A stretch of DNA of 29,023 nt from a virus: the IMG/VR virus record IMGVR_UViG_3300046787_000397, positions 1 to 29,023 of that record; one strand, written 5' to 3'. The number at the start of each line of letters is the position of its first letter. Within the stretch, counting starts at the first letter, position 1. Made by a program: the position numbers and the translations under genes. Below the pieces are notes generated by a model. It worked only from the letters and a program-made list of their open reading frames with translations. It had not been told where the DNA came from and ran no database searches. Positions 4,640 through 20,859 of the stretch are shown one piece after another.

Positions 4640-4682
4640 TAAAATAAAACTGCTATGGGGCAGTCCTCTGGGTTCTATTATA
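4640..4682 (-). promoter_or_regulatory. AGAGGAC hairpin leader with -10 box (copy 1)
   Basis: On the minus strand: TATAAT (4682-4677), 7 nt, AGAGGAC (4669-4663), hairpin CTGC-CCCATA-GCAG (4663-4650), then a T-rich tract. This is the weakest stem of the six copies (4 bp), although the CCCC run is kept. No good -35 box is visible. It heads the ejection/lysis unit. Confidence 0.7.
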
Positions 4683-4709
4683 GCACTTTTTTAATTAAGT
4701 AAATATAAA

Positions 4710-5198
4710 TTAGCTAGTTATGTCTTGGGCGAATACATATACCCTTAATTTGACTACACAGGGAACCAATGAGCCTGCTACCCCAGATAGCCTATATTTA
4801 TCAACATATATATTGACATTGGTGGCATCAGTTCTAACGGCTATAGAGGCACTATCCACCCCCTCAAAAGTCTTAACACTCAGTAGCATCCTATCCTGGT
4901 TATAGGTTTGGTAGGGTGTTTGGCTGGTGGGTGGTACTATTTCGGTAATCATTGACCAGACCTGTGGAACATAGCTGTAGCCGTGGGGGAATGAATATAT
5001 AAGAGTAGAGTTAGTCAGCCCAACGCCTGGCTCTGGGGGGTCGTTATTAAAGGCTATGGTAATGTTCTGAAAGCTGGCGGCCTTAGTAATGTCCAACTTA
5101 GCTATTGGATAGGTCATATTCATTAGTAAGTTAGCTGCCGTAGCCGTTTGAGCATCTACTCCAGGTGTAGCTATTTTGATTCCGTAGTCAGTAGCCAT
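4710..5198 (-). CDS. Beta-rich virion protein with YGIKI N-terminal module
   Basis: The 162-residue protein starts MATDYGIKIATPGVDAQT, closely resembling the start of the upstream gene product. The rest is beta-strand-like with aromatic residues (SFPHGYSYVPQVW), as in small receptor-binding or tail-tip lectin-like domains. YGIKI-starting proteins occur widely in phage structural clusters, as far as I recall, but no biochemical role is assigned. It follows the 272-residue paralogue after one base and has no clear SD, so translation is probably coupled. Confidence 0.6.
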   Translation of the reverse strand: MATDYGIKIATPGVDAQTATAANLLMNMTYPIAKLDITKAASFQNITIAFNNDPPEPGVGLTNSTLIYSFPHGYSYVPQVWSMITEIVPPTSQTPYQTYNQDRMLLSVKTFEGVDSASIAVRTDATNVNIYVDKYRLSGVAGSLVPCVVKLRVYVFAQDITS

Positions 5199-5199
5199 A

Positions 5200-6018
5200 T
5201 CAATATTTTACCGTTATATCGTTAGAACTGAACATAGGATCACGTAGGATTATTAGACAAGCTTTAGCGGCAGTAGCACCAAATGGCCCATAGTTAAGCT
5301 GATAGGTATAAGTTCCTCCTGAGCTATTAACAAATAGTCTTGGGTATGATTGGGCGTAATAGCCAGCCCAGTAATAATACCCCTGGTCATCAGTCTGAAA
5401 CCCAAAAGCCCATAATGGAGTAGCGACTGGAGGAGTATATAAGATGTCGAATGTGCCACCACCCAAAGCGCTAGTGATACCGCTAGCTTCCGTTTTTACC
5501 GCTAAAATTTGGGGGCTTTGTGTTCGGGAATGGAGGATAAAATCTCTTAGGTCGGTGCTTTCTATGTCTTTACCGTCTTTAACTATCTTTATCCCATAGC
5601 TAGCATCGTAATAAGAACTGACCCCTGTTGGTTTCACATAAGGGTATTCTTTGTCCACGGCTAGGTTGATGTTATAGCAGACTATATGGATACTGCTATA
5701 GCCAGTGATGGTAGCTCCTGAATAAGTCCATAGTAGCATTACCTTGGTGCTGTTTATAGAGAAGTCATTATATCTTTGGGTCTTGCCAGTAGTAGCATCA
5801 GTAGCCCAGGCTATCACAAACGGGGTGAATCCCAGCCCATGGGTAAAGGCTAGGGTATAATCTGAGAAATTAGAAGTTCCCCCATAGGCACTATTAGTAA
5901 AAGTAGCTTCGGCAGCAATCGGTAGTGTTGGCCATGACGAACTAAACAGCAAATTAGAATCGGCTGCGGTGGTTGCATCGTAGAACGGTTGGGATATTTT
6001 CAACCCATAATCTGCCAT
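5200..6018 (-). CDS. Tail/virion protein with two YGIKI modules
   Basis: The 272-residue protein carries two versions of the same short module. One is at the N-terminus (MADYGLKISQPFYDATTAAD, followed by a strand ending TLPI). The other is at about residues 138-175 (SYGIKIVKDGKDIESTD, ending SPQIL). Between and after them are beta-rich segments with GLGFTPFVIAW and YTPPVATPLWAFGF, suggesting two similar globular domains. AGGAGG is a strong SD 4 nt from ATG. It probably contributes to the tail tip or receptor recognition. This is inferred from neighbours, not from a characterised homologue. Confidence 0.6.
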   Translation of the reverse strand: MADYGLKISQPFYDATTAADSNLLFSSSWPTLPIAAEATFTNSAYGGTSNFSDYTLAFTHGLGFTPFVIAWATDATTGKTQRYNDFSINSTKVMLLWTYSGATITGYSSIHIVCYNINLAVDKEYPYVKPTGVSSYYDASYGIKIVKDGKDIESTDLRDFILHSRTQSPQILAVKTEASGITSALGGGTFDILYTPPVATPLWAFGFQTDDQGYYYWAGYYAQSYPRLFVNSSGGTYTYQLNYGPFGATAAKACLIILRDPMFSSNDITVKY

Positions 6019-6026
6019 ATTACCTC

Positions 6027-6227
6027 CTAGAAAGCATCTTTTTGATAACCCAGTACCATACGGGTGGTACCACTGTCATCAACTACTAGTATCCTACCCT
6101 TAACAATCATATCACCACGGCTGTTGCCAGTTGATACTTGCCTGGGTAGAACCCTGCCAGTAGCATCAGCTGTCAATGGTACATCTGGTATGCTGGGGTA
6201 TTCTTGAGTGTCGGGATTATTAAACAT
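6027..6227 (-). CDS. Small virion-associated protein (66 aa)
   Basis: The 66-residue protein ends in GRILVVDDSGTTRMVLGYQKDAF. This resembles the C-terminus of short phage tail proteins that end in a VVDD-G--R-LIGYQK motif, by recollection. Its start overlaps the stop of the nozzle-like gene by one base (TAATG), implying coupled translation. Likely a small tail component or fibre attachment protein; the exact role is unknown. Confidence 0.6.
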   Translation of the reverse strand: MFNNPDTQEYPSIPDVPLTADATGRVLPRQVSTGNSRGDMIVKGRILVVDDSGTTRMVLGYQKDAF

Positions 6228-8113
6228 TAGCCTTGAGTTTCGTGATAATTACTATTGTAAATAAGGGTAACACAATTAACTGACGGGGTGGTAGTAGTAG
6301 AGCCTAACATGACCCTAGTACTTATGTAATAGAAACGCTTGTTTATCTTTAAGGTAGCGAGATTGCCAGTAGCTACGGCTGTTCCGTATACCCATGCCCC
6401 ACCATCAATGCTATAGCCGAGGGTGACTGTTTCGCCAGCGTTAAGATTACTACATAGGGCGCTCAGTTCTATAGCGCTTTTAGCCTTGGTTCTCTGACCA
6501 TTATCGAAAGTCAAGCCCTGCCAGATAGCAGTAGACTGCGGATCGCTGTAGTTATCAACTATATCTACCCCATAACCGTTAGTATCGTCTTGCCAGCTTA
6601 TATGAAGCATGTCGGCAAAGTTCTTAACCATACCTATCTTTAAGTTGCCAGAGGTATTAGTTAGGGTACCTGTGCTGATTGGATAACTGAATCCGAATGA
6701 TTCTTGGTAGTTCTTATCTATTGAGCCGTAGCTGTAAACCCCGTGCTCTATTGACTGGTTGGTAGTAGTTGAGGGGTAGCCGAACAAATGGATACCACGC
6801 CTAATAGTAGCCATATTCGGGTAAACGATAGTTTGGTCAACTCTATCGGTGTATTCACTGTCAGTATTAGGCATGGTACGAAGTTTCACTGGGGCAGCGT
6901 TAGCATACCCATACCAAGCTCCCCCAGCGAAATAGTACAAAATATTTTTGTGTTCGTGGAGTGAGTATGGTGAACCCTCTGGTATCTTGACATAGTAGTT
7001 ATAGGTCGATGCCAAACCATCCCAGAAGAAGATGTAACCTTGTTGAGCCGATACGGTAGCGCTAGTACTACGTTGTTCGCAAGCGATAGCTAAGTATTCA
7101 TTAAACGGAGCTAGTCCACAGACTTCTAAGCCTGCTGGGAATGTTAGGCGGTGTCTAAGCCATTCAGCATTAGTCGGTACGTCTGAGAGTGGTTCCCAGG
7201 CGCTTAGGTAGTTGCCGTTGCCAAAACACTGGTACTGTAGGAATGTTTCTTGGGGGTGCATACCGTTGTTGGTATTGATAAGCCTGTCAGCCCAGTATTC
7301 ATAGTCGCAAGTATTCAGATCGTTAGCAGTTGAGCTGGCTACCGTGCCATCGGCTACAGTGCTGGTTAGGTGGAAGTGATAGGTTCGGGCGTTAGGTTTA
7401 ACATATTGTCTTATCTGCGATGAGAAAGAGAAGTAATTAATAGCATTATTATTTAGGCTGGCATTAGCCACGGTCACTGTACCTAAGACATTGTTGACAC
7501 CATCATGTAGGGTGAGTGTCCAGTTACCAGTACCCTTGGCTATGATCTTAACCCCAATCTTTACACAAGGTTCTATGTCTGGCTGGTAGGCTTGTTTGGC
7601 GTTTTCTGCTTCGGATAGAGAGGTACCGATAGCGGTCGTTAAGGCTCCCCCTGTTAGGTAGGCGGTTGAAACTGACGAAGCGCTAGCCCCGAATTTGTCT
7701 ATCTTAATGCTGGGGGAATTAGATATTGGGGAGTATTCGCTAACTGTATTAAGGCTGGTAGCATACACGGCATCGGTATCACGCCTGTAAGATAAGCCGT
7801 GCGATCCGTTACTGTTTAAGGTAGCTTGCTTAGACCAGACCCCAGCTGTAGTTCGTTTGTAGAAACTACCAGCACTGCCTAGAGCATAGATAACACCGTC
7901 ATTAGTCATCACTTCATTCTGAACAAGGTCAGTAACAGTACCGCCAGTTTCTTTTCTGGCTCCAGGCAATACGCTGAACTGGGTAGGTTTCTTTCTAAAG
8001 TCAATACCCTTGGAATAAGCAAAAGAGCTGGGGCCACCCAGCTGGTCATCAGTAGCCCAGCCACCGTAAAAAGAGCTTTGTACTAATGGTACAATCTCAA
8101 GTCGCCTAGCCAT
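6227..8113 (-). CDS. Large tail nozzle / tubular-B-like protein (628 aa)
   Basis: The protein is beta-rich throughout, with repeated strand-turn units (for example GVIYALGSAGSFYKRTTAG and GLAPFNEYLAIACEQR) that look like propeller blades. The N-terminal part (SFYGGWATDDQLGG, DFRKKPTQFSVLPGARK) resembles phage proteins that begin by describing a surface or tail assembly. Its place directly after the adaptor parallels the adaptor-nozzle order of T7-like and P22-like phages. I infer a tail nozzle or tail needle platform; it could instead be a large receptor-binding protein. No enzyme motif is seen. Confidence 0.6.
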   Translation of the reverse strand: MARRLEIVPLVQSSFYGGWATDDQLGGPSSFAYSKGIDFRKKPTQFSVLPGARKETGGTVTDLVQNEVMTNDGVIYALGSAGSFYKRTTAGVWSKQATLNSNGSHGLSYRRDTDAVYATSLNTVSEYSPISNSPSIKIDKFGASASSVSTAYLTGGALTTAIGTSLSEAENAKQAYQPDIEPCVKIGVKIIAKGTGNWTLTLHDGVNNVLGTVTVANASLNNNAINYFSFSSQIRQYVKPNARTYHFHLTSTVADGTVASSTANDLNTCDYEYWADRLINTNNGMHPQETFLQYQCFGNGNYLSAWEPLSDVPTNAEWLRHRLTFPAGLEVCGLAPFNEYLAIACEQRSTSATVSAQQGYIFFWDGLASTYNYYVKIPEGSPYSLHEHKNILYYFAGGAWYGYANAAPVKLRTMPNTDSEYTDRVDQTIVYPNMATIRRGIHLFGYPSTTTNQSIEHGVYSYGSIDKNYQESFGFSYPISTGTLTNTSGNLKIGMVKNFADMLHISWQDDTNGYGVDIVDNYSDPQSTAIWQGLTFDNGQRTKAKSAIELSALCSNLNAGETVTLGYSIDGGAWVYGTAVATGNLATLKINKRFYYISTRVMLGSTTTTPSVNCVTLIYNSNYHETQG

Positions 8114-8116
8114 TAT

Positions 8117-9010
8117 CTACCACGTTCCTGTTGCAGCAGATGGCGGTAACTGCCAAAAATTATATGCAGGGGCTTCTTCCGTTATTACTTGTGAGGCACT
8201 AGAACTGGCGTATTTAGCCTTAGCATCAGCTACAGCTAGTTGGAATTTAGAATTATGATAAGTAGCCCTGTCGGGGTTGTTTCTAACTTCAAAGTATCGT
8301 CCAAGGGCAAAGTCTACTGGGGCATCATGGTACTCATCAGGGAATATAAATGATTCGCCGATGAGGAATGTCTTGGAGCCGCCACTAAGGCCGATGTAGG
8401 GTTCCTCTAGGGTTAGAACTGTTCCGCTTGAGTAACTGGTAACTTTATAGGTATAGCCATCGGAACCATCAGTAGTTTGGAATGTCCTACCAACCATTGT
8501 GTTAGTAAAGGTAGTGCCAGAGCCAGTGACGGTGGTTAGGCCGTTGGTAACTGTAACTGTGCCAGTTGAATAATCATCTTGGGTTAGCTGGTGGTCACGG
8601 GGTTCATAGTAAATCTCTAGCCCGTTAGTAACGGCTTGTGATGGTATAGGCCATAGACCAATTTCATCTGCACCCCTAACAAAATAGTAGGTAGCCCAGT
8701 TACCAGTTTGCTGGATAGTATTAATAGCTCGCCACTCATATTCAGAGCGTATTTGTCTAACTGGGTATTTACGCCCGTTGCTAAGAGTATTGGTAACACC
8801 CCTAACCCGTATGCAGTCTGGTGGGGTTTGGTAGAATTGCTGGTTAGCCACGGTATCAGTTGATTTAGCTTTACGGGTGAAATAGCGGTCTAGTGCTGAG
8901 TTAAACTTAGCAGCCCCGATATTCATATCGTCTTTAGCCTGCGTTAAAGCCTCTGCTGTTGTATCAGCAGATATGCGTTGGAATTTTGCCTGTGCCTGAG
9001 TAAATGTCAT
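8117..9010 (-). CDS. Head-to-tail adaptor (connector) protein with an inserted beta domain
   Basis: The 297-residue protein begins with a helical region (QAKDDMNIGAAKFNSALDRY) and continues with strands typical of phage adaptor/tail-tubular-A proteins. An inserted beta domain lies at about residues 145-210 (GTVTVTNGLTTVTGSGT to LTLEEPYIG), a module I recall in connector proteins. The C-terminal part returns to helix (HDAPVDFALGRYFEVRN). Such proteins form the ring beneath the portal. It is the first gene behind leader copy 2 and has no SD between the hairpin and its ATG. Adaptor is the best call; a stabilisation protein is close to equivalent. Confidence 0.68.
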   Translation of the reverse strand: MTFTQAQAKFQRISADTTAEALTQAKDDMNIGAAKFNSALDRYFTRKAKSTDTVANQQFYQTPPDCIRVRGVTNTLSNGRKYPVRQIRSEYEWRAINTIQQTGNWATYYFVRGADEIGLWPIPSQAVTNGLEIYYEPRDHQLTQDDYSTGTVTVTNGLTTVTGSGTTFTNTMVGRTFQTTDGSDGYTYKVTSYSSGTVLTLEEPYIGLSGGSKTFLIGESFIFPDEYHDAPVDFALGRYFEVRNNPDRATYHNSKFQLAVADAKAKYASSSASQVITEEAPAYNFWQLPPSAATGTW

Positions 9011-9057
9011 ACAAATAAAAAACGCCCTATAGGGGCGTGTCCTCTGTATGTATTATA
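9011..9057 (-). promoter_or_regulatory. AGAGGAC hairpin leader with -10 box (copy 2)
   Basis: Minus strand: TATAAT (9057-9052), 6 nt, AGAGGAC (9045-9039), hairpin ACGCCC-CTATA-GGGCGT (9038-9022), then TTTTTATTTGT to the ATG at 9010. The stem has 6 pairs and the T tract makes it a textbook intrinsic terminator shape. The spacer from stem to ATG is 11 nt with no SD in it. TTGTAT 15 nt upstream of the -10 is a possible -35. Confidence 0.8.
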
Positions 9058-9090
9058 TCATAAACCAATATCATACAATGCCTAGTTGTT

Positions 9091-9915
9091 TTAGATTCCT
9101 ATAGCTATCCAATTTATCGTTTGCCCAGTATTAGCTACACCAGCATCAGTTACTACTTGGCAACTGAATCCAGTCGTTGTCACACTGCTCACAACCGCAA
9201 AGGTATTTGCGCCAACTGCCGTGACAACGTTTGCTACGACTACTGGGGCGTAAGTATATGCTGTAGGAAAAGTATGAGCGGTTGGGCTACCACTATTAGC
9301 AGTTGTACCACATTGTATTCTAACGTCAGAGGCACTCACATCATAATCCGTAGTTCCAGCAGTACCCCAAACGGTTGCGCTACCGCCTCTACGTTTATAG
9401 ATTTGCCCATTAAGCATTTTGGCTGCCGTTACCGCATCATCCGTAATGTTGGTAGTGACCACCGAATTGGCTGTATTCAAAGCACTGTCCTTAATACTCA
9501 ACCCATCAATCGTCACCCCATTAGCACCAGTATATTCAGCGATACTATCTACTGTCAAAGTAGGGTTGGCTATAGTAGCAGTATTTACAACAGGACTAGT
9601 TAAAACTTTATTAGTCAAAGTTTGGCTAGCGGTTGTGGTTACTACTGTGGCTGGGAAAGTAGGTGTGCCACCTATGGTATAAGTCCCAGCTATAGTACCT
9701 GATAGGGTAGCTGCGTTTATAGTTGGGTTAGTAAGCGTCTTGTTGGATAGTGTTTGACTATCCGAGATTCCTGTGGGGGCGCTTGTGATACCAAGGAGGC
9801 TGTCCCTAGTGATTTTCTTTGTCATCCCATTTCCAACGTCCACGATAGGCAATACATCCTGAGTTGCGTCAGGGTTGGTGTAGGAGGTAAGAGCAGTTAT
9901 TTTGCTGTTACTCAT
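9091..9915 (-). CDS. Tail fibre protein with H-type-lectin-like C-terminus
   Basis: The 274-residue protein has a short N-terminal head (ITALTSYTNPDATQDVLPIV), a shaft of repeated strands with Asn/Thr turns ([45 protein letters not shown]) up to about residue 152, then a distinct C-terminal domain. That domain (TFPTAYTYAPVVVANV, TTTGFSCQVVTD, INWIAIG) has the strand pattern of H-type lectins and phage receptor-binding tips. Its shaft matches the upstream gene almost exactly over residues 114-152. The start overlaps the upstream stop (TAATG). It probably binds a surface sugar. Confidence 0.72.
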   Translation of the reverse strand: MSNSKITALTSYTNPDATQDVLPIVDVGNGMTKKITRDSLLGITSAPTGISDSQTLSNKTLTNPTINAATLSGTIAGTYTIGGTPTFPATVVTTTASQTLTNKVLTSPVVNTATIANPTLTVDSIAEYTGANGVTIDGLSIKDSALNTANSVVTTNITDDAVTAAKMLNGQIYKRRGGSATVWGTAGTTDYDVSASDVRIQCGTTANSGSPTAHTFPTAYTYAPVVVANVVTAVGANTFAVVSSVTTTGFSCQVVTDAGVANTGQTINWIAIGI

Positions 9916-10802
9916 TATGCCGTCTCATAATATCCGCTAAGGTCTATAATGTCGGTAGTCGCCCACGTAAATGGAACAGTTGATGACGTAGCAGTTATAG
10001 TAGAATAAGTGCCAGCTGCATTATTTGCATATAGGTCAATCCTACTAGTTGTGCCGAATAGAGCATAGCCATAGTTTCTAGCCGAAGCACTTGTATCAGC
10101 GAACTGGACTACCCCCGTTGCCATATCTGCAGCGGTGACATTGCCAGTGGTAGGAAGTGATACCCCGACAAGTCCAGCTACCCCAGCTCCAGCAAGAGTA
10201 TACCTAAACTTATACATAATTATTTTGCCAACTTGAGTATACAGAGCGTAATTTAATGTGCCACCAGATAAATTAGTGAGTGTTGGTGCCCAGCTAGTCC
10301 ATGCCCAACTAGCGCCCCATGCCCCAGTGTTGTTATGGGCGTTATTCGGTACGCTATTAGAAGTATTTAGGGCGCTGTCTTTGATGTTTAACCCATCAAT
10401 AGTCACGCCATTAGCACCAGTGTATTCTGCAATACTATCAACTGTCAGCGTAGGATTAGCTATAGTAGCCGTGTTAATAGTCGGGCTTGTCAATGTTTTG
10501 TTTGTTAGGGTCTGGATGCCTGTTAGGGTAGCTACCGAAGCAGGGAACGTAGGAGTACCACCTATAGTATAGGTGCCGTCTAATGTGCCAGATAATGTTG
10601 CCCCGTTTATGGTCGGGCTGGTTAGGGTCTTATTGGATAAGGTTTGGCTGTCCACATCACCTATCGGGTTGCCAGTGATGCCAAGCATAGCATTGGGGGT
10701 TATCTTATTACTGGTGTTGCCAGATACATCAGTAACCTCCAAAACGTCAGTAGTCCTGTCTATCGCCCCTAGTGATGGTAGTTCAGTTATAAGCTTTGTC
10801 AT
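9915..10802 (-). CDS. Tail fibre protein, paralogue of the downstream fibre with a different tip
   Basis: The start chosen is ATG 10802, which gives a TAATG overlap with the upstream stop and aligns [10 protein letters not shown] with [11 protein letters not shown] of the paralogue. An ATG at 10817 would add five residues. The shaft repeats ([14 protein letters not shown] and [13 protein letters not shown], then the shared block beginning [11 protein letters not shown]) match its neighbour. The C-terminal domain differs: [19 protein letters not shown] to [12 protein letters not shown], a type common at phage fibre tips. It is probably an alternative or accessory receptor-binding protein sharing an attachment point with its paralogue. 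Confidence 0.72.
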
Positions 10803-11152
10803 TATGCTTCCACCCATATTGTATCATCTTTAGGGGTATAAGAACCATCGGCAGTTACCCTAGAATCGCCAGAAATTGTCACCCTAGTATCACCTGATAT
10901 GGTCACTCTTGTGGCCGTGGCACTAGAGCCAACATCACCAGAGCCATCTACTCGCCATACAGTGTCATCTTTGGTATCGGTTTGTGACCATACAGTATCA
11001 TCTTTCGGGGTTACTACTGATGAATCTAAGATTAAAAAGTCACCTGATTCAGTGATAAGAAAATCGCTACTTTCAGTAATCAAAAAGGTATCAGTGATGC
11101 TGGTTGCATCACCTGTACCTGATTGTGGTCGCCATGCTGTAGCTGATTTCAT
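10802..11152 (-). CDS. Short-repeat virion protein
   Basis: The 116-residue protein is built of three kinds of short imperfect repeat. One is [15 protein letters not shown] (three copies of FLITES or FLILDS), one is PKDDTVW or TKDDTVW (three or four copies), and one is [18 protein letters not shown]. Each would form a beta-strand with a turn, suggesting a small solenoid or trimeric fibre segment. Repeats of this FLLLESGD type occur in phage structural genes, as I recall. It lies between a small beta protein and two fibres, so a tail or fibre-network role is likely. Confidence 0.6.
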
Positions 11153-11164
11153 TTAGTTGGTTTC

Positions 11165-11434
11165 CTATACTGGGCCGTGTGAAGTATCTACCGAAACTGT
11201 AATATCTGGCGTACCAGTAGTTACTATTCTTACGCCACTGTTAAAGCCAAAAGCCCTAATAAGCATACCTACTGTTGGGGCGGTTACTACTCCGTGGGTT
11301 GATGTTGTACCAGTAGTACCATCAACTATAGTAATGTTACCTGTTGGGGTGGCATTAACTTGTATCCAAATTTGCTTAGCTTTACCAGTGTATACCTGGG
11401 TTGTGGCAGCGGTGGTGATGTTTGCAATCGTCAT
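11165..11434 (-). CDS. Small beta-sandwich-like virion protein (89 aa)
   Basis: The 89-residue protein is almost all strand-forming Thr/Val/Ile (VYTGKAKQIWIQVNATPTG, GNITIVDG, RIVTTGTPDITVSVD). No motif identifies an enzyme. It is the first gene after leader copy 3 and has its own SD (AAGGAG, 6 nt before ATG). It is followed by the repeat protein and the two fibres. It is probably a fibre-associated or decoration-type protein; homology is not recognised. Confidence 0.6.
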   Translation of the reverse strand: MTIANITTAATTQVYTGKAKQIWIQVNATPTGNITIVDGTTGTTSTHGVVTAPTVGMLIRAFGFNSGVRIVTTGTPDITVSVDTSHGPV

Positions 11435-11445
11435 TTTATCTCCTT

Positions 11446-11493
11446 AAAAAATAAATAGCCCCTTTTACGGGGCTATCCTCTGGATTTATTATA
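11446..11493 (-). promoter_or_regulatory. AGAGGAT hairpin leader with -10 box (copy 3)
   Basis: Minus strand: TATAAT (11493-11488), 6 nt, AGAGGAT (11481-11475), hairpin ATAGCCCC-GTAAAA-GGGGCTAT (11476-11455; the stem shares two bases with the heptamer), then ATTTATTTTTT and an SD. At 8 pairs this ties with copy 5 for the longest stem. It is the only copy with T instead of C at heptamer position 7, and the matching A on the other arm keeps the pair. Confidence 0.8.
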
Positions 11494-11496
11494 TCA

Positions 11497-11649
11497 CTAT
11501 TTCTTTACAATATCTTTAGCTTCTTGGTCTAACTGTTGTATGCGAGCTTGTAAAGCTCTTAGGTTGTTCTGTTCCATTTCTATGCGTTGGATACAATCAA
11601 AGGCTAGGGCTTTAGCTTGTTCTACTGTTTTAATGTCACTCAACTGCAT
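11497..11649 (-). CDS. Small coiled-coil protein (50 aa)
   Basis: The 50-codon frame begins at ATG 11649, overlapping the upstream stop by one base (TAATG), and ends at TAG 11497. The product is one amphipathic helix (MQLSDIKTVEQAKALAFDC then QRIEMEQNNLRALQ and QQLDQEAKDIVKK). It could be a small chaperone, fibre coupling peptide or structural accessory. It is the last gene of its unit; the next promoter's -10 box lies only four bases beyond the stop. Confidence 0.65.
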   Translation of the reverse strand: MQLSDIKTVEQAKALAFDCIQRIEMEQNNLRALQARIQQLDQEAKDIVKK

Positions 11650-11957
11650 TACTTTACTCCTTTTATTACTTCTTCTACTGGGGCTTCTTTAACTTGCATA
11701 GCTTCTAGTTTGGCTGTGGCTATTGCTTGGGCTTGTTCTTTTAGGGCTGTTTGCTTTTTATCTACAGTTACATCGGCTACAGGTACAACACCTGCTATAG
11801 CATTTCGATTAGCTTGTTCTAGAAGGTCGTTTGATATTTTGTCTAGGATTTTGCTTGTTACAAAATCTTCTATACTGATACCTGAATCTACAGTCCAGCC
11901 GTGAAAGGTTGCGTAGTTTTCGGCTGAGGTAGAATCTAGTTTGATATTTATGTCCAT
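11649..11957 (-). CDS. Hypothetical protein of the tail-fibre unit (102 aa)
   Basis: The 102-residue protein is acidic and mainly helical. The central region (SIEDFVTSKILDKISNDLLEQ) is followed by an Ala/Gln/Lys-rich helix ending in VEEVIKGVK. No motif is recognised. It lies between the 536-residue fibre and a 50-residue coiled-coil protein, overlapping the latter by one base. An SD-like AAGGAG lies 5 nt before ATG. A role in fibre assembly is possible but unproven. Confidence 0.6.
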   Translation of the reverse strand: MDINIKLDSTSAENYATFHGWTVDSGISIEDFVTSKILDKISNDLLEQANRNAIAGVVPVADVTVDKKQTALKEQAQAIATAKLEAMQVKEAPVEEVIKGVK

Positions 11958-13580: not shown

Positions 13581-13871
13581 CTAAGACCTCGTGACGGTGC
13601 TTATTTGACTTTTAGTGGTGTCGGTAAATACGATTGTTATAGTGGCCACAGTAGTGCCGCCAGAACCACCAGTTTTATACACATAGGTATCGGTTGTCGT
13701 GTTGGTGTTGGTATATCCAATATAATCATAATTGTAGGGAACTAAGATACCAGCGCTAGTCGGGGTCAAAAGAATAGCTCCCGTGGAGCTATCGCCCTTT
13801 ACTGGGAATGGTAAGCCCGTGATACTGTCAAGTACTTGTAAGGTTTCTCTATGGTTATCAGTTATGTTCAT
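13581..13871 (-). CDS. Small beta-rich structural protein (96 aa)
   Basis: The 96-residue protein is beta-rich with Thr/Gly loops (GAILLTPTSAGILVPYNYD, TDTYVYKTGGSGGTTVAT, ITIVFTDTTK). It resembles short proteins placed before fibres in phage genomes; function unknown. It is the first gene behind leader copy 4, with ATG 10 nt after the hairpin and no SD there. The following fibre gene starts immediately after its stop. Confidence 0.6.
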   Translation of the reverse strand: MNITDNHRETLQVLDSITGLPFPVKGDSSTGAILLTPTSAGILVPYNYDYIGYTNTNTTTDTYVYKTGGSGGTTVATITIVFTDTTKSQISTVTRS

Positions 13872-13916
13872 AAATTAAAAATGCCCTAAATGGGGCAGTC
13901 CTCTGCCCTTATTATA
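13872..13916 (-). promoter_or_regulatory. AGAGGAC hairpin leader with -10 box (copy 4)
   Basis: Minus strand: TATAAT (13916-13911), 6 nt, AGAGGAC (13904-13898), hairpin TGCCC-CATTTA-GGGCA (13897-13882), then TTTTTAATTT to the ATG at 13871. The stem is 5 pairs. There is no SD between stem and ATG (10 nt). Confidence 0.8.
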
Positions 13917-13924
13917 CACCAATG

Positions 13925-14725
13925 TTACAATTTCATAAACTTAGCGTACTCCTGTGCCTTTTGCTCCATTCCAGCTATTTTAGCCTCTCTACGGTTCATC
14001 ACTTGCTCCCGAAGTTCTACAACCTTTACCCTAACATTTATATCATTGTTAATCTTGGCTTCTTTTTGCTCCAAGTACATTAAGCGATTTACAGCATCAG
14101 TACTTTTCTGAATAACAATCTTCATATCATCTTCAATGGCGTTTTTACGGGTCATTAAATCGGCTCGTAAGTTAGTAAGCTGTTCCTCGGCCGTGTTAAT
14201 GGCTTCCCATAAATCAGCTTGTCTACCTATGCCAATCCCTAGCTTATTATCTATATCTTTAAGCTCATCGGCTTTATCATCTATAGATTCCTCTATGTCG
14301 CTCAGGTCATTCTCGGCTTCTTCTATGCGTTCATCTAATAACTTTTTTCTCTCTTGGGTCTTTTCCAGTAAGGCTGTTTGGGTTTCGATGTTGCCTTGCA
14401 ATAGCTTAAGTTCACCTATAGCATCGGCAATAGACTGCATGACTGATTGTTTTTGATCCTCTAGGTCTTTTAAGACATTAGGATAGGCGGCAATATCTAG
14501 TTCATATTTAGTCTGCTCTTTGGAAAACTCTTTAGCGGCCCTAGCTTTTCGGGCCTCTATTTCTTTTAAATGGATAGCTAAAGATTCATCGGCTCGTTGT
14601 TTTTTAAGTTCAACGCTAGCTAGTTCATTTTTTAGATGCTGTAGCTGGGCTTCTGCTTGTTCCTGCTTTTCCAATGCTTGGTGCAGGTTGAGGGTGGGTT
14701 GTTTGGGCTGCGAACGGTTGCTCAT
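13925..14725 (-). CDS. Long coiled-coil protein (266 aa)
   Basis: Almost the whole protein is predicted coiled coil by eye: heptads of Leu/Ile/Ala with Glu/Lys/Gln (for example QAEAQLQHLKNELASVELKK and EAENDLSDIEESIDDKADEL). It has no Cys and no enzymatic motif. The ATG at 14725 has AGAGG 9 nt upstream and lies 101 nt inside the 185-residue gene in another frame. No other Met exists until about residue 95, so the overlap seems genuine. It may be an elongated structural, assembly or internal protein. A short tape-measure role is possible but lacks hydrophobic segments. Confidence 0.6.
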   Translation of the reverse strand: MSNRSQPKQPTLNLHQALEKQEQAEAQLQHLKNELASVELKKQRADESLAIHLKEIEARKARAAKEFSKEQTKYELDIAAYPNVLKDLEDQKQSVMQSIADAIGELKLLQGNIETQTALLEKTQERKKLLDERIEEAENDLSDIEESIDDKADELKDIDNKLGIGIGRQADLWEAINTAEEQLTNLRADLMTRKNAIEDDMKIVIQKSTDAVNRLMYLEQKEAKINNDINVRVKVVELREQVMNRREAKIAGMEQKAQEYAKFMKL

Positions 14726-15182
14726 CTTGTGTAACCTCTAGTTCTTCGGTTTTATTTAATTCATTAAGCTGTCGTTGGAATCGCTCCTCGGCAGTGATAA
14801 TATCTTCGCTTTGTTGGAATTTAGCGCTGTCCATAATAACCTTTTCTTCAAAAGCTATTCTAAGTGTTTTGTCACCCATCTGTTTAACTGCACCCTCACG
14901 TTGCATGAGTTCATTAACTAGCTGGGTAACAACCACACGAGCTACATGCCCTGGCATTTTTTTGCTTTGACCAGACGGGATAGTAACGGTATTGACTACA
15001 TGGCTTTGTCCTGGGTGGCTGTTATTTCTTAGCCCAAGTCGTTCAATAGTCTTATCTATTCCTGCATTTGGGTTGACCACGCTGGTGGCTACCTTAGCTT
15101 CAAAGTCATTGCTTAGCGGATTAAAAACCTCCACTATATCATATTCGGTGAAAGCATCTACTAATGATTTATTTTCGTCCAT
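14625..15182 (-). CDS. Hypothetical protein with Pro/Ser-rich tail (185 aa)
   Basis: The N-terminal 120 residues are mixed alpha/beta (TEYDIVEVFNPLSNDFEAK, PSGQSKKMPGHVARVVV, QLVNELMQREGA). The phrase VEVFNPLS--F resembles small phage proteins just after capsid genes, by recollection. The tail (THPQPAPSIGKAGTSRSP) is low-complexity and is the part overlapping the next gene by 101 nt. SD AAGGAG lies before ATG 15182. The role could be capsid or tail assembly. No confident family. Confidence 0.55.
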   Translation of the reverse strand: MDENKSLVDAFTEYDIVEVFNPLSNDFEAKVATSVVNPNAGIDKTIERLGLRNNSHPGQSHVVNTVTIPSGQSKKMPGHVARVVVTQLVNELMQREGAVKQMGDKTLRIAFEEKVIMDSAKFQQSEDIITAEERFQRQLNELNKTEELEVTQDEQPFAAQTTHPQPAPSIGKAGTSRSPATASKK

Positions 15183-15372
15183 TTTTGGCTCCTTTTACCA
15201 CTTTCGGTGGTATTATTTCTACTTCTTCTAACTTATTTAATACTTGGTCAATCATATTAAAAGCACCCCTTAACTCGGAGCGCTCTGCATTTAATTTATC
15301 TATTTCGCTGCCAGCATTAGCAAAAGCCTTTTCTATCTCTGCCTTGCGCTCCTCAAGCCATTCTTGGTTCAT
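15169..15372 (-). CDS. Small coiled-coil protein (67 aa), possibly from a leaderless mRNA
   Basis: The start chosen is ATG 15372 (MNQEWLEERKAEIEKAFANAG). ATG 15390 or a TTG at 15405 would extend it by 6 or 11 residues. The product is a helical hairpin-like protein with heptads (EIDKLNAERSELRGAFNMID) and a basic tail. There is no SD before ATG 15372; instead TATAAT lies 6 nt upstream, so transcription would begin at or next to the ATG. A terminator lies just upstream. It overlaps the next gene by 14 nt. Function unknown; the helical form suggests a scaffold-type or tail chaperone role. Confidence 0.55.
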   Translation of the reverse strand: MNQEWLEERKAEIEKAFANAGSEIDKLNAERSELRGAFNMIDQVLNKLEEVEIIPPKVVKGAKNGRK

Positions 15373-15378
15373 TTTATT

Positions 15379-15384
15379 ATTATA
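15379..15384 (-). promoter_or_regulatory. -10 box TATAAT for a possible leaderless transcript
   Basis: TATAAT on the minus strand ends 6 nt before ATG 15372, with an intrinsic terminator directly upstream. No convincing -35 is seen. The position predicts a transcript starting at the ATG. Confidence 0.45.
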
Positions 15385-15398
15385 TACCATAACGCTTA

Positions 15399-15428
15399 AA
15401 AACAAAAAGCCCCCATTTCTGGAGGCTT
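15399..15428 (-). terminator. Rho-independent terminator after the small decoration gene
   Basis: Minus strand stem AAGCCTCC-AGAAAT-GGGGGCTT (15428-15407, 8 pairs including one G-T) followed by a T-rich tract (TTTTTGTTTTT). It follows the stop of the gene at 15447-15857 by about 18 nt. Unlike the six leader hairpins it has no AGAGGA and no -10 box in front. Confidence 0.8.
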
Positions 15429-15446
15429 AATGCTTGAACAGTTAGC

Positions 15447-15857
15447 TTAGCTAGACTGACCTTTTATAACCACGAAGTTGATAACGATTGCACCCGTTTC
15501 AGCTGTACCAGCTGCTGGGTTGTTGTTAATAACTGTGATGCTAAATGAGCCAGCTGCGACAGCCGTTACGACTACATCAGTGTTTAATGCGACAGTACCG
15601 CTTGCGATACTTACTAGCACAACATCAGTTGCGGCAACAAAAGAGTTCGTTACTGTGAATACTGCGCTTGCTTCAGCAGCAAGGCTCGTGTTATTCGTAG
15701 TAATTTGACCACTTAAAGCGTTAATAGTAACGCCAGTTGCTCGGTTAGTAGCTTGAGTAACAGTTGAACCAGAACCAACAGCATAACCAAACTTTTTCTT
15801 AGTTTGGAAGCCATCGAGCTTTACAGCTTGTTCAAATTGTTCTAAAGTTCGTGCCAT
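15447..15857 (-). CDS. Small capsid decoration-type protein (136 aa)
   Basis: The 136-residue protein has a short helix (TLEQFEQAVKLDGFQTKKKF), then a beta domain from about residue 37 on: ATGVTINALSGQITTNNTSL, EASAVFTVTNSFVAATDVV, GSFSITVINNNP and INFVVIKG. This VTIN--SGQITTN ... FTVTNS ... INF-VIKG pattern is a domain I recall in phage decoration and head or tail surface proteins. It lies second after the major capsid gene and ends at a strong terminator. SD AAGGGG precedes ATG. It may trimerise on the capsid surface. Confidence 0.62.
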   Translation of the reverse strand: MARTLEQFEQAVKLDGFQTKKKFGYAVGSGSTVTQATNRATGVTINALSGQITTNNTSLAAEASAVFTVTNSFVAATDVVLVSIASGTVALNTDVVVTAVAAGSFSITVINNNPAAGTAETGAIVINFVVIKGQSS

Positions 15858-15867
15858 TTTTAACCCC

Positions 15868-16584
15868 TTATCTTAAAGTTAAGAAGATAGGCTTGTAAGC
15901 TGTATCTACAGTTAATTCTGGAGCAAAACCAATTCTTTGAGTAACAGTAGCTGCAACTTCTATTTCTACAGCACCAGCGACAGCATCAGAGATGATTGCG
16001 CCAGCACCCTTAGTAATAGCACCGTCAGATAGAACTGCACAGTAACCATTAACTTGGAACCAAGCGTAGTTTGCAGCTGCAACGTCTACGTTTGCTACAC
16101 CAGCTGCTTGGAAAGCAACTGCACTTGAGCTAACGATAAGGTTAGCGTAAGTGTTAGGGTATAGTGACAATTTAGAGCTAGTTGTTAATGCAACTGTCAA
16201 AGGTTCTGCAAGCGTAACGGTAGTTGTACCGCTAGAACCAGCAGAAGTGTTACCTACGATGAGGTAAAGGTTTTGACCTGGGCCAACATCTACTGCCAAG
16301 AAACCACCAGCGTACTGGTCGGCTGTTACTGCTGTAGCACCAACAGCGACTGCAACTGAAGTTGAGCCAGCTGCGGTAGCGGCAGCGGTACGAGTAATGT
16401 GGTTAGCTACTAATGGGCTAGAAATGTTCAATTTACCAGCTGATAGAGCTACTGCGCCAGCAGTACCGTATGCGTACTGACGGCCATCGGCTGTTGAAGC
16501 TAATTGACCTAGTTTTGCTGAACCACGGCTAGAAGCCGTTGAACGTGCATCTTGGTCAGTTAGTTGAATTTGTGCGGAAATCAT
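15868..16584 (-). CDS. Capsid-associated (head decoration/fibre-like) protein (238 aa)
   Basis: The 238-residue protein is very Ala/Thr/Val/Ser-rich and beta-structured. It begins with a hydrophilic stretch (QIQLTDQDARSTASSRGSAK) and continues with strands such as GQNLYLIVGNTSAG and SKLSLYPNTYANLIV. Genes directly after the major capsid gene with this N-terminus are annotated as head proteins in other phages, as far as I recall. SD GAGGAGAA precedes ATG. It starts 24 nt after the capsid stop, in the same unit from leader 5, so high expression with capsid is expected. Confidence 0.58.
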   Translation of the reverse strand: MISAQIQLTDQDARSTASSRGSAKLGQLASTADGRQYAYGTAGAVALSAGKLNISSPLVANHITRTAAATAAGSTSVAVAVGATAVTADQYAGGFLAVDVGPGQNLYLIVGNTSAGSSGTTTVTLAEPLTVALTTSSKLSLYPNTYANLIVSSSAVAFQAAGVANVDVAAANYAWFQVNGYCAVLSDGAITKGAGAIISDAVAGAVEIEVAATVTQRIGFAPELTVDTAYKPIFLTLR

Positions 16585-16608
16585 ATATGTATTCTCCTCT
16601 TTCCTTAA

Positions 16609-17676
16609 TTAAACGGTTGTTATACCAGTTATTTTTGCATTACGCACAGGATTTCGGTGAATCAAGTTTCCATAAACAACGAAGATACCAATCTCAGCAA
16701 GCTGATTAACAGGTTGCATGTAGTCCCTGAACTGGAAAGCACTTGGCTTTACCTTGTCGTATACGCCCTCGGTGACTTTGTTAGCGGTAGCAACAGTTTT
16801 TAGGCTAGGGATGCTAAGGCTACGGAACTCCATGTAACTTGGGTTAATGAAGTACATTGTGCCACTAGGACATTTGTCATCACGGAAAACAGTTTTACCA
16901 CGATAGTCAACGCCTGTGAAACCACCATGGCCTTGTGCACCATCTCGAGTTGCTTCACCAGGTAGCGTTAAGCTAGCTGTTGGATAACCCATAGTTTGGT
17001 ACATAGCTTGTTTTGTAGGTTCTAGTAAAGAAGCATACAAAGTCCATGCAGTTTTGGTTGTGATAACGGCTGCACTAGTTTCGCTAGCAAGACCAGAAAC
17101 GGTTGAAGCATCATCTGCTGCATCCATAAGGTCTAGGCTCAAAACACCAGCTGAGGCAGCTGAAACATAACCATTGATGTAAGTTCCGTATGTGCTACGA
17201 GAAAGTCCACCATATGAACTTGTGCTAGTGCTGTCGTCAACGATAAGGTTTAAACCGTCAAAGTTGTCGCCAGTACCTGTACCGTAGTAGATAGAACCAA
17301 GAGCATTGCTCATTGAGTTCTGTGCGTACTCGTAACTAGCTTGCTGAATTTCGATAACACCAGCTGAGCCAGCGTTAGCGCCACGCTCTACAAGGCTATC
17401 TACAACTGGTTGTCCAAAACCTGTTGCATACCATGTCAAGTTTACTGTGTTCATGTCTACGTTTGTATCAAACGTATCTGCCCCACGGAAACTCTTACCT
17501 TGGCTAGAGTTGTTAGTGAAAATAGGTTGCTGAATCTGACGGCCATTCCATGGCTTTGGATTGCTAACTACCCATAGGTTTATTAGGCTGGAACGGTTTA
17601 CCGTGTCGACAACCTTTGGTACGATTTCTTCTAGGGTTAGGTTATTTAACCTATCCTGAAAAGCTGTTGCGCCCAT
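16609..17676 (-). CDS. Major capsid protein, HK97-like fold
   Basis: The 355-residue protein has the length and layout of HK97-fold capsids without a protease-type extension. It has an N-terminal helix (TAFQDRLNNLTLEEIVPKVV), an E-loop-like region (QGKSFRGADTFDTN), a spine helix (QASYEYAQNSMSNALGSIYY), an A-domain segment (PGEATRDGAQGHGGFTGVDY) and a C-terminal part (DYMQPVNQLAEIGIFVVYG). It follows a scaffold gene and precedes decoration proteins. SD AAGGAG 6 nt before ATG; it is the first gene behind leader 5, consistent with strong late expression. The exact subfamily cannot be fixed by eye. Confidence 0.85.
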   Translation of the reverse strand: MGATAFQDRLNNLTLEEIVPKVVDTVNRSSLINLWVVSNPKPWNGRQIQQPIFTNNSSQGKSFRGADTFDTNVDMNTVNLTWYATGFGQPVVDSLVERGANAGSAGVIEIQQASYEYAQNSMSNALGSIYYGTGTGDNFDGLNLIVDDSTSTSSYGGLSRSTYGTYINGYVSAASAGVLSLDLMDAADDASTVSGLASETSAAVITTKTAWTLYASLLEPTKQAMYQTMGYPTASLTLPGEATRDGAQGHGGFTGVDYRGKTVFRDDKCPSGTMYFINPSYMEFRSLSIPSLKTVATANKVTEGVYDKVKPSAFQFRDYMQPVNQLAEIGIFVVYGNLIHRNPVRNAKITGITTV

Positions 17677-17701
17677 GTGTATCTCCTTAATTTACTTACT
17701 A

Positions 17702-17747
17702 ATATAAAAAACAGCCCCAATGGGACTGTCCTCTGCTATACAATATA
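17702..17747 (-). promoter_or_regulatory. AGAGGAC hairpin leader with -10 box (copy 5)
   Basis: Minus strand: TATATT (17747-17742), 7 nt, AGAGGAC (17734-17728), hairpin ACAGTCCC-ATT-GGGGCTGT (17729-17711, 8 pairs with one T-G), then a run of six T. It heads the capsid unit. TTGTAA lies 11 nt upstream of the -10, too close for a normal -35. Confidence 0.8.
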
Positions 17748-17770
17748 CAGCATTTATTTTACAAGTGCAA

Positions 17771-18724
17771 TTATGTTCTATAGGTAATATCCCTAATATT
17801 GCCACCAGTGCCAACAATCATATTGTCGGGCACATTAGCACCACCTTGGCTTTGGCTAGATTCTCCACCTACCATAGCCCCACGAGCTTTAGTAGCGGCT
17901 TTAGCGGCATTAACCCTAGCTATGTTGGCCTGTTTAAGGCCGTCTAATTCCATGGAGTTGTGGGCATCAAGAACCGACATCAACCTAGGTACCCCAGCTT
18001 TATCTCTTTTAGCATTTTCAGTAGCCATGTAATTAATGATAGCAACTCGCTCTTTAACGCCTGGTTGCTTAGCAACTTCTGGGTCTGACCAGTCGGCATT
18101 TTCATATTGCTTAGGTACTGGAGGCAATGAACCGTTAGACTCTAAATAACCCATGCCAGATTCAATACCACTAATGAACTGCTCTTGTTGCTGGACAGTT
18201 TCTTGGTGGCTATCAAATTCAGATTTCTGGGCATCGTAAGCTTTTTTATCGTTTTCGATACCAGTAAGCATCCGAGTGTAGTTAGCCTGGGTTTTGATTA
18301 AATCGCCAGCACTAGCAAACTCTACGTCTGCGCCTAGAGCTTCAATATCTTCTGGGGTACTGATTTTAACAGTTGAGCCATCGGCTAACTTAATATCGAA
18401 CGAATAATCATTAGGCTTAAATTCACCTGGGTCTACTAATTCAGAGGCTGGTTCAACTGGAGGGGCAACGGCAGGGGCTGTTGGTTGTGCCACGTTGTCA
18501 GGCTGACTGTCATCACCCTTGGTGTCATCATCGTTACTGCTATCATCGGCTGGCTTGTTGTCTGCTGATTCATCTTTAGGTTCCTCTGCTGGTGCATCAT
18601 TATCTAACATTAATCCAACTGGCACATTGCTATCCTCTTGGATAACTGGGGCTGCTGGTTCTTCTGCTGGTGCATCTACCACAGGGGCATCTACAACTGG
18701 TGCAATAATATTTTCTTCATCCAT
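17771..18724 (-). CDS. Capsid assembly scaffolding protein
   Basis: The 317-residue protein is strongly acidic and repetitive at its N-terminus (Ala/Pro/Asp/Glu-rich), then has a short beta segment (YSFDIKLADGSTVKIST) and a long helical, Gln-rich region (KKAYDAQKSEFDSHQETVQQ), ending basic near the C-terminus (AAKATKARGAM). This layout, placed between portal and major capsid, is the usual phage scaffold: it guides procapsid assembly and then leaves. No protease motif is seen. It starts behind a TATAAT box next to the portal stop, with SD AAGGAG. Confidence 0.8.
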   Translation of the reverse strand: MDEENIIAPVVDAPVVDAPAEEPAAPVIQEDSNVPVGLMLDNDAPAEEPKDESADNKPADDSSNDDDTKGDDSQPDNVAQPTAPAVAPPVEPASELVDPGEFKPNDYSFDIKLADGSTVKISTPEDIEALGADVEFASAGDLIKTQANYTRMLTGIENDKKAYDAQKSEFDSHQETVQQQEQFISGIESGMGYLESNGSLPPVPKQYENADWSDPEVAKQPGVKERVAIINYMATENAKRDKAGVPRLMSVLDAHNSMELDGLKQANIARVNAAKAATKARGAMVGGESSQSQGGANVPDNMIVGTGGNIRDITYRT

Positions 18725-18749
18725 AACTGGCTCCTTACTTTATGACTAT

Positions 18750-18755
18750 ATTATA
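18750..18755 (-). promoter_or_regulatory. -10 box TATAAT before the scaffold gene
   Basis: TATAAT on the minus strand abuts the TAG of the portal gene. Downstream comes AAAGTAAGGAGCCA and the scaffold ATG. The same arrangement (gene end, TATAAT, AAAGGAGCCA, ATG) occurs before the small gene at 25424. No AGAGGA leader is present. Confidence 0.5.
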
Positions 18756-20807
18756 CTACATCCCTGCTGGCGGTGCTTGTGGAGGCATCGGAGGGCCACC
18801 TGGAGCTGGTGCACCCATGGCTGGGTCGGCTGGGTTCATAGAGGCAACACCGCCCATATCTAAGCCTTGCTGGTCTGTAGCGGCGTTGGCTGTTTCGCTT
18901 TGAATATTAGCAGTACGGGTAGCTACTTCTAATACACCCTTTAGGAAGTCGGTAATTCGTTGCTGGGCATCTGGTTGTAGCTTAGCGTACTTATTGCTAG
19001 CAATGTAGTTATTCATATAGTTAAGGTAGCCTGGGTCGTATTCATCCCGTTCTTCTGGCACCTTGTTATCTGTAAGGATAGCAATGTCCATATTAGCATC
19101 ACGGCTAAATTGTTCTTTTTCAATATCAGCCATATAGCCAGCTGGGTCGGTAGTGGACTTCTGTACTCTTTCGGCAACTTCTGTAGCATCTGGTATACCC
19201 AACATTTCAAATAAGGTTAGGTTGTCTATACGATCTGGGCCGAGTTTAGCAAGTTCTAGGGCAGCATTTCGGAGCTGGTCTTTGTCTTGCGGTAGGGTAG
19301 AGCCAGACTGAACGCTGACTTTTACCCCTGTATCTATATTGTCCGAACTAATAACTACGAAGTCATAAGTACCATCTGGGCCTTTAGTCTGTACCCAATG
19401 TTCTTCTGTGTAATAGACTTTCATCATCTGGGCTAGATATTTGTAATACTGGCCCATTGCCTGGTCTACTGCTCCAGCTATGTCATCTTGCAAGGCTCCA
19501 GCTTGCTGTTTAATAAGCATGTTTTCACCAAGCGTATTAGCACCTTGCTGTTGCTGACCACGAAATATATTAGGGGTGCCGAAGATTTGGTCTAGCTCAT
19601 TACGGGCATCATAAAGCGTATCGATAACGTAGCCTGGAAGCATCTGCGGTTCTACGACTTTCATATCATTGGATATGTTGCCAGAACCCTTAGAGCCGTC
19701 TACTAACATAATAGTCTTAGGATTCTTATTTAAGAACTTAGAGGCATCTTCTTCGCTCATTATTCGGCTGTCGGCAATAACCCGACCATTGACATAATCA
19801 GCGTTATCCCAAATTTGACGACCTCGTTTATTAATAAGATCCTGCATTGGTTTAGCCTGGTCGAATAGAGAAGTTTCATCAATGTAGCTCTTGCCTGAGT
19901 TTAGATAGTTGAATGGAATGAACGGTTTGATAGGCAGATTGGTAATATTGTTGTGCATGTCATTAGTCTGACCATCTGAATAAACCCAGTTAGGGTTACG
20001 CATCTTACCGAGTATTAGTTGACCTATTGGCATGAACCAAGCTAGACCCTCTTGCTTCTTTTTTTCCTTATCTATATAAGTAAACCAAACTTCGTAATAA
20101 TCTACCCTAGCAGTCACCTGTGACTGAGTACCACGCTTAATACCTAATGATTTTTTAATATCATCTTCTTTGTCTGGGAATTTAGCGATTAGTTCTTCTA
20201 CAGTACATGTTTGCTTATGATAAATAGCCCGTGGGTTGTCCTGAAAACGAGCATATCGGTCAATAACGACATTCTCTGGGTCGATGCTTTCAACTACTAT
20301 TTCTCCAAATTGACCGAGAGTAGGGTCGAATCTCAACTTTAAAAAACCACGTTTTCTAACAATTAGGTTACGAGTAGCAGACTTAACCTTTATATTAAGA
20401 AAAGCATCTACCCCGTGCTGGTATAGAGCACTCTTAAAGTCCTCGGAAAACTGTTTAAACTGTGAGCCTGGCTTGGATGGTACCACTTCTGGCATAGCTA
20501 CCCTGGCATTAACATAGGCTAGCACCGAACGGGCTGCTGCGAAAATACGGTTATCTATATAACGGGCGTTATGAGGTTGAAGAAACTTCTCATCTAATTG
20601 TTCGCCAAGCATGTACTTGTTGTTGTCTTTATCGGTTTTGGCTAGCTCAAACGGCTTGCTGTTCCAGTGATCTATATTCTCCTGTAAGGCTGGTATCAGC
20701 ATCTTAGCAAGTTTGTTATCTTCAATATCTAAGTCATATAATTCGTACTGTATATTGTCGTTATTTAGGTCGGTATAAGCACCTTGGTCTAGTATATTAT
20801 TGTCCAT
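18756..20807 (-). CDS. Portal protein (683 aa), P22-like type
   Basis: The 683-residue protein has the size and order of large podovirus-type portals: a helical start (DNKLAKMLIPALQENIDHW), a stem/wing region (RNLIVRKRGFLKLRFDPTLG, VVESIDPENVVIDRYARF), a long middle with DLINKRGRQIWDNADYVNGR and DARNELDQIFGTPNIFRGQQ, and a Pro/Gly-rich disordered C-terminus. It forms the twelve-subunit ring through which DNA is packed and ejected. It lies between terminase and scaffold. Its ATG is 11 nt from the hairpin of leader 6 with no SD. Confidence 0.85.
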   Translation of the reverse strand: MDNNILDQGAYTDLNNDNIQYELYDLDIEDNKLAKMLIPALQENIDHWNSKPFELAKTDKDNNKYMLGEQLDEKFLQPHNARYIDNRIFAAARSVLAYVNARVAMPEVVPSKPGSQFKQFSEDFKSALYQHGVDAFLNIKVKSATRNLIVRKRGFLKLRFDPTLGQFGEIVVESIDPENVVIDRYARFQDNPRAIYHKQTCTVEELIAKFPDKEDDIKKSLGIKRGTQSQVTARVDYYEVWFTYIDKEKKKQEGLAWFMPIGQLILGKMRNPNWVYSDGQTNDMHNNITNLPIKPFIPFNYLNSGKSYIDETSLFDQAKPMQDLINKRGRQIWDNADYVNGRVIADSRIMSEEDASKFLNKNPKTIMLVDGSKGSGNISNDMKVVEPQMLPGYVIDTLYDARNELDQIFGTPNIFRGQQQQGANTLGENMLIKQQAGALQDDIAGAVDQAMGQYYKYLAQMMKVYYTEEHWVQTKGPDGTYDFVVISSDNIDTGVKVSVQSGSTLPQDKDQLRNAALELAKLGPDRIDNLTLFEMLGIPDATEVAERVQKSTTDPAGYMADIEKEQFSRDANMDIAILTDNKVPEERDEYDPGYLNYMNNYIASNKYAKLQPDAQQRITDFLKGVLEVATRTANIQSETANAATDQQGLDMGGVASMNPADPAMGAPAPGGPPMPPQAPPAGM

Positions 20808-20859
20808 AAAATTACAAATTCCCCGAAATTAACAGGGGAAGTCCTCTATTTCAAGTATA
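20808..20859 (-). promoter_or_regulatory. AGAGGAC hairpin leader with -10 box (copy 6)
   Basis: Minus strand: TATACT (20859-20854), 6 nt, AGAGGAC (20847-20841), hairpin TTCCCC-(10 nt)-GGGGAA (20840-20819, 6 pairs), then TTTGTAATTTT to ATG 20807. TTTACC 17 nt upstream of the -10 is a weak -35. No SD lies between stem and start. Confidence 0.8.

Follow-up and report, generated by a model that had tools for sequence, protein, structure and literature searches.

The viral contig IMGVR_UViG_3300046787_000397 (IMG/VR; positions 1 to 29,023, all 29,023 nucleotides (nt) of which form the window analysed here) carries on its minus strand six copies of a promoter-leader element, each consisting of a TATAAT-like -10 box, the hexamer AGAGGA, a hairpin and a T-rich tract, ahead of virion genes. 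This architecture is conserved in relatives with changed hairpin arms, and its hairpin has the folding energy and tail of an intrinsic terminator. From these sequence features the element was read, with a probability of roughly one half, as a late promoter whose leader contains a promoter-proximal intrinsic terminator; this terminator would close the upstream unit and attenuate its own. Termination in vivo, its efficiency and any regulation are inferred.

All six sequences listed in the original prediction were confirmed in position and architecture (Table 1). The -10 box is TATAAT in four copies, TATATT in element 5 and TATACT in element 6, and lies 7 nt from the hexamer in elements 1 and 5 and 6 nt from it in the other four; the heptamer reads AGAGGAC five times and AGAGGAT once. 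The pattern TATA[ACT]T-N6-7-AGAGGA was found six times on the minus strand of the window and not at all on the plus strand, against a chance mean of 0.04 and a maximum of 1 in 100 dinucleotide shuffles. Summed over the six sites, the 30 nt after AGAGGA folded at -53.9 kcal/mol, whereas 2000 shuffles averaged -21.0 and reached -38.7 at the lowest, with single-site P values from 0.005 to 0.054. Perfect stems comprised 4 base pairs (bp) in element 1, 5 bp in element 4, 6 bp in elements 2 and 6, and 7 bp in elements 3 and 5, so the G+C-rich stem of at least 5 pairs that characterises intrinsic terminators is present in elements 2-6; the weakest hairpin is that of element 1 (CTGC/GCAG, -3.8 kcal/mol), and the T tail of element 6 is weaker than the others (TTTGTAATTTT). 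As predicted, the elements head virion units: portal, major capsid and SU10-type adaptor genes were recognised downstream by family match, and the remaining three downstream genes (elements 1, 3 and 4), for which no firm family match was obtained, lie inside the virion block and have orthologues with the same kind of element.

In close relatives (portal or capsid identity 84-97%), both the portal and the capsid site retained AGAGGA and a stem whose arms had changed, CAGTCCC/GGGGCTG at the capsid site of the window corresponding to AGCCCCA/TGGGGCT in L004 and AACGGCCCA/TGGGTCGTT in L009, and TTCCCC/GGGGAA at the portal site to TTCCCTG/CAGGGAA in L004. Genome G005 (capsid identity 56%) has AGAGGA elements before its orthologues of the portal, capsid, 89-amino-acid (aa), adaptor and 261-aa genes (the last at 40.7% identity), and before one further gene. 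Orthologues of the 89-aa gene were hairpin-led in G005, G006, G007 and G008 (4/5 overall) and those of the 96-aa gene in G006 and G007; the adaptor orthologue was hairpin-led in 2/8 only, the remainder having no promoter-hairpin just upstream. In more distant genomes the capsid gene was hairpin-led in 8/8 (two result sets combined), as were some further genes, and in most of about 55 relatives the region upstream of the capsid gene showed a promoter, a short start segment, a G+C-rich hairpin and a T-tract, followed by a Shine-Dalgarno sequence and ATG or by ATG directly. A T-tailed hairpin preceded the major capsid gene at 36/40 loci, in a capsid family reaching down to about 30% identity; a T-tract was not required for a stem to be called in this search, and the T fraction over the 8 nt after the stem was 0.79, against a background of 0.30. 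Element copies are related, so counts do not represent independent events.

TATAAT-like boxes in the pooled loci peaked 12-29 nt ahead of T-tailed hairpins, and across 16 genomes 58/162 hairpins had such a box 11-31 nt upstream, compared with 12 and 12 in two control windows. No excess of boxes was seen in the control phages lambda, A118 and Sfi21 (4/39, against 2 and 3) or in 24 unrelated viral loci (7/30 hairpins, against 8 and 3). A scan of all viral contigs for TATAAT-N6-AGAGGAC with a T-tract gave 24 matches, none with such a G+C-rich hairpin, and these look like chance.

Pairing was judged by arm-swap and orthologous-site comparisons; the sequence-only alignment of 18 copies lost the stem register, and RNAalifold therefore gave only GG/CC pairing of the hexamer with the 5' arm. 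Own arms scored 20.9 and swapped arms 10.5, and the arms vary between copies and between orthologous sites yet pair in each, which upholds the earlier proposal of selection on pairing. Loss of AGAGGA or of pairing in related phages, named in advance as evidence against the element, was not observed, since close relatives keep both, and distant ones keep AGAG-like starts with pairing. The proposed AGAGGA leader is present in this clade; the hexamer itself proved to be the clade's version only, the start motif elsewhere in the family being AGAGGT, AGAGTC, AGAGCTT or AGAAGACT, and the family-wide invariant is a promoter, a terminator-like hairpin and a U-tract.

The promoters are of the sigma70 type, with a TATAAT-like -10 box accompanied by TGn or TTGACA and a deduced start 6-7 nt after the -10. 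Leaderless promoters form a second class in the same phages, with many sites in G018, G019 and G023-G026. At leaderless genes the ATG was located 6-7 nt after an extended -10 in 26 cases, whereas the remaining distances had about 1.5 cases per nt. Hairpin-led promoters carry AGAG or AGAA at this offset; AGAG itself was found there in 20/73, against a shuffled mean of 1.5. The coincidence of the two offsets would, by analogy with leaderless genes, place +1 at the A of AGAG, in line with the predicted start at the heptamer.

Leader hairpins and stand-alone stop-proximal terminators of the same genomes had median energies of -12.8 and -12.9 kcal/mol and 7 and 6 T in 8, respectively; the leader hairpins in this comparison were chosen with a T-tail required, and the unbiased tail figure is that of the capsid sites. 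The original prediction had entertained terminators as a mere chance alternative, an account at odds with hairpins indistinguishable in energy and tail from the phages' own terminators, and because of this match the leader is most simply read as a promoter-proximal intrinsic terminator. In the mechanism proposed, transcription from a sigma70-type late promoter, often with an extended -10, would begin at the A of AGAG, and the nascent RNA would at once meet a terminator formed by a G+C-rich hairpin at about +7 to +25 and a U-tract at about +26 to +36. Part of the polymerases would stop, releasing an RNA of about 30 nt, and others would read through to give virion mRNA. Since each unit directly follows another in the same orientation, a stop codon and the next -10 being some 20 nt apart, the same hairpin would also terminate the upstream unit, so that the element would combine unit boundary and attenuator and set late-gene output. 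In a transcription unit of 38 bp, E. coli RNA polymerase terminated about a third of the time in vitro at an intrinsic terminator, and polymerase released at a promoter-near terminator can start again from the promoter immediately upstream (PMC6978380). By analogy, such restart may occur at these phage promoters, an attractive consequence.

Several observations weigh against a leader terminator. A terminator before the virion gene in greatest demand looks wasteful if it is neither leaky nor relieved, and the strongest objection is that a leaky stop ahead of the capsid gene calls for an explanation; this could be partial read-through, an antiterminator, or an effect of the start sequence on termination, as is known for T7 A1 and lambda PR'. 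With its perfect stem of 4 bp, element 1 would terminate weakly. In distant relatives the hairpin is absent from some virion units, which are leaderless (for example the G018 portal), and it is therefore not obligatory for late genes. No match named antitermination was present among the families listed for 55 proteins (best 25 of 50 for PHROGs), the window phage being incomplete.

A possible, if doubtful, alternative is that the hairpin acts as a 5' leader structure, stabilising virion mRNA or keeping the ribosome site accessible in the manner of the 5' stem-loops on ompA and T7 gene 10 mRNA, with the U-tract as an unstructured, translation-friendly stretch and negligible termination. The hairpin does precede the gene for the most needed product, the capsid (36/40), and the presence of a Shine-Dalgarno sequence follows the distance from start to stem (0/27 when the ATG is at most 16 nt from the stem, 35/46 when further), from which the leader appears coupled to translation starts. 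Stabilisation by 5' stems, however, tolerates no more than a few unpaired bases at the 5' end, according to work on ompA, and the stem here starts at +5 or later in 71/73 promoters, counted from the deduced +1, which makes an mRNA stabiliser less likely; that role does not call for a T-tract right after the stem (0.79 T), and the hairpins are indistinguishable from stand-alone terminators. A translational role of another kind, in which AGAGGA is the Shine-Dalgarno sequence and the hairpin a folded spacer bringing it near the start codon, as reportedly between the Shine-Dalgarno sequence and start codon of T4 gene 38, would fit elements 2, 4 and 6, where no other Shine-Dalgarno sequence is present and the stem lies 10-11 nt from the ATG. 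It is highly improbable, as AGAGGA is kept at elements 3 and 5 although a normal Shine-Dalgarno sequence follows the hairpin, and in other lineages starts equally close go with AGAGTC, AGAGCTT or AGAAGACT, all poor Shine-Dalgarno sequences. The hairpins might also be plain unit-end terminators that overlap the next promoter through short intergenic gaps, the order having no function. The gaps of about 20 nt agree with this, as does the finding of a separate terminator between stop codon and -10 at 0/17 hairpin-led promoters, although against 3/56 in the comparison set the cases are too few to show avoidance. Such an arrangement is quite unlikely given that the promoter-then-hairpin order is kept at similar spacing across the family down to about 30% identity, together with the AGAG start motif, and that the terminator-then-promoter order also occurs in the same genomes (15428/15384 in the window).

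A further proposal, unlikely but not negligible, is a multi-site late antitermination regulon of Saccharibacteria phages, in which terminators at about +30 hold the hairpin-led virion units off until opened, either by a phage factor recognising the AGAG start or the leader RNA, like lambda Q at PR'/tR' but at every unit, or by the AGAG-NN start itself, pairing with the hairpin base as a self-antiterminator. The start sequence common to promoters within each genome and the promoters of strong consensus, which show no obvious activator site, are in its favour, and so is the potential of the start segment to pair with the 5' arm, for which a run-based score had a mean of 4.86, against 3.37 for shuffled and 3.61 for swapped segments, exceeding all 300 shuffles and all 300 swaps. 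In numerous copies the nucleotides following AGAG are able to pair with the base of the 5' arm, and they change together with it within one genome (GGC/GCC and GAC/GTC in G012; GACT/AGTC and GCCT/AGGC in G026). When the nascent RNA was folded, 91% folded at all, against 63% in the null (maximum 80%), but the mean energy of -1.84 against -1.53 was inside the null range, and the alternative pairing is treated as a lead rather than a result. A hairpin-less sister clade has CCAG[GA]GTTTT in the -35 region, as if another control had replaced the hairpin, which suggests a different, activator-type control there; these sites precede capsid and other genes in the TM7 phage DolZOral124_53_65 and its relatives (L016:19155, G010:25723, G010:30706, L062:9929). 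Leaderless late units would escape antitermination control, and the protein families noted above included no recognised antiterminator.

Compared with known systems, the leader hairpin shares with intrinsic (Rho-independent) terminators a G+C-rich stem, matching energy and a T-tract directly at the stem, but lies in the 5' leader, at most about 30 nt from its own promoter, and not after the last gene. Lambda PR'/tR' with Q likewise combines late virion genes, a strong promoter and an intrinsic terminator in the leader; the phage terminator described here ends at about +30 rather than about +194, many units are involved rather than one, and no Q homologue was recognised among the families listed for the 55 proteins. 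The T7 gene 10 leader offers a parallel in that a capsid-gene mRNA has a hairpin close to its 5' end and A/U-rich sequence after it, whereas here, unlike T7 gene 10 and ompA, the stem is not at the extreme 5' end, the T-tract is terminator-like and the promoter is of the host sigma70 type. Attenuators with alternative hairpins also place a terminator in the leader, and numerous copies here allow pairing of the start segment with the 5' arm, but no leader peptide is present, no ligand is known and the candidate alternative pairing is short. DolZOral124_53_65 has related virion genes and GroEL, yet it and its sisters are without the leader hairpin before the capsid gene, and it has CCAGGGTTTT in the -35 region instead.

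This phage is the nearest named relative (capsid identity 42%), and as its recorded host is a candidate division TM7 bacterium, the hosts of the family are probably Saccharibacteria, which are tiny parasitic bacteria, on the basis of that one record. Family phages also occur on contigs binned as Prevotella and Terriglobia (L126-L128, GTDB genomes), where mis-binning is likely. The window encodes a GroEL (23452-25005, minus strand) with a GroES-sized gene directly upstream (25007-25339), and GroEL-like genes are annotated in L016 and L017 as well. Two adjoining minus-strand genes with common segments (9091-9915 and 9915-10817) are probably a tail-fibre-like pair that arose by duplication. In G006, a stretch of about 1.95 kilobases is present in two copies (around 2200-5200), apparently as a tandem duplication, with identical hairpins at 3215/5163 and 2438/4386.

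Table 1. Elements, genes and other features of the window (ORF, open reading frame).
Feature	Position	Strand	Parts and remarks
Element 1	4640..4682	minus	-10 TATAAT 4682-4677; AGAGGA 4669-4664; stem CTGC/GCAG 4663-4650; T-rich 4649-4640
Gene downstream of element 1	3829-4614	minus	261-aa ORF
Element 2	9011..9057	minus	-10 TATAAT 9057-9052; AGAGGA 9045-9040; stem ACGCCC/GGGCGT 9038-9022; T-tract 9021-9011
Gene downstream of element 2	8117-9010	minus	SU10-type adaptor ORF; family match; no Shine-Dalgarno after hairpin
Element 3	11446..11493	minus	-10 TATAAT 11493-11488; AGAGGA 11481-11476; stem TAGCCCC/GGGGCTA 11475-11456; T-tract 11455-11446
Gene downstream of element 3	11165-11434	minus	89-aa ORF
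Element 4	13872..13916	minus	-10 TATAAT 13916-13911; AGAGGA 13904-13899; stem TGCCC/GGGCA 13897-13882; T-tract 13881-13872
Gene downstream of element 4	13581-13871	minus	96-aa ORF; no Shine-Dalgarno after hairpin
Element 5	17702..17747	minus	-10 TATATT 17747-17742; AGAGGA 17734-17729; stem CAGTCCC/GGGGCTG 17728-17712; T-tract 17711-17702
Gene downstream of element 5	16609-17676	minus	major capsid; family match
Element 6	20808..20859	minus	-10 TATACT 20859-20854; AGAGGA 20847-20842; stem TTCCCC/GGGGAA 20840-20819; T-rich 20818-20808
Gene downstream of element 6	18756-20807	minus	portal; family match; no Shine-Dalgarno after hairpin
Stand-alone intrinsic terminator	15407..15428	minus	after capsid unit; AAGCCTCC agaaat GGGGGCTT, T-rich tail
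Leaderless promoter	15370..15384	minus	TATAAT-AATAAA-ATG; just after the stand-alone terminator, in the ordinary order of terminator then promoter
Terminase	21146-22774	minus	virion block
Cytosine methylase			in window
Virus contig window	29 kb (kilobases)		virion genes in one minus-strand block

The feature is real, conserved and outside Rfam, which gave no match above the gathering score in the window and five relative loci, in agreement with the claim that no named leader family has this form. Its parts (promoter, intrinsic terminator, leader) are known; their order and copy number were not found described, and the literature search returned neither a description of such promoter-hairpin leaders nor a study on late gene control in Patescibacteria phages. 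The unusual order of promoter then terminator-like hairpin, which stands at the head of most virion gene units in this phage family and is kept while the sequence changes, probably throttles or separates late gene expression. A conserved cassette of promoter, terminator hairpin and leader repeated at the heads of virion units would be a distinct means of setting late output and keeping units apart within a compact genome, and it marks the starts of virion units in otherwise unannotated contigs.

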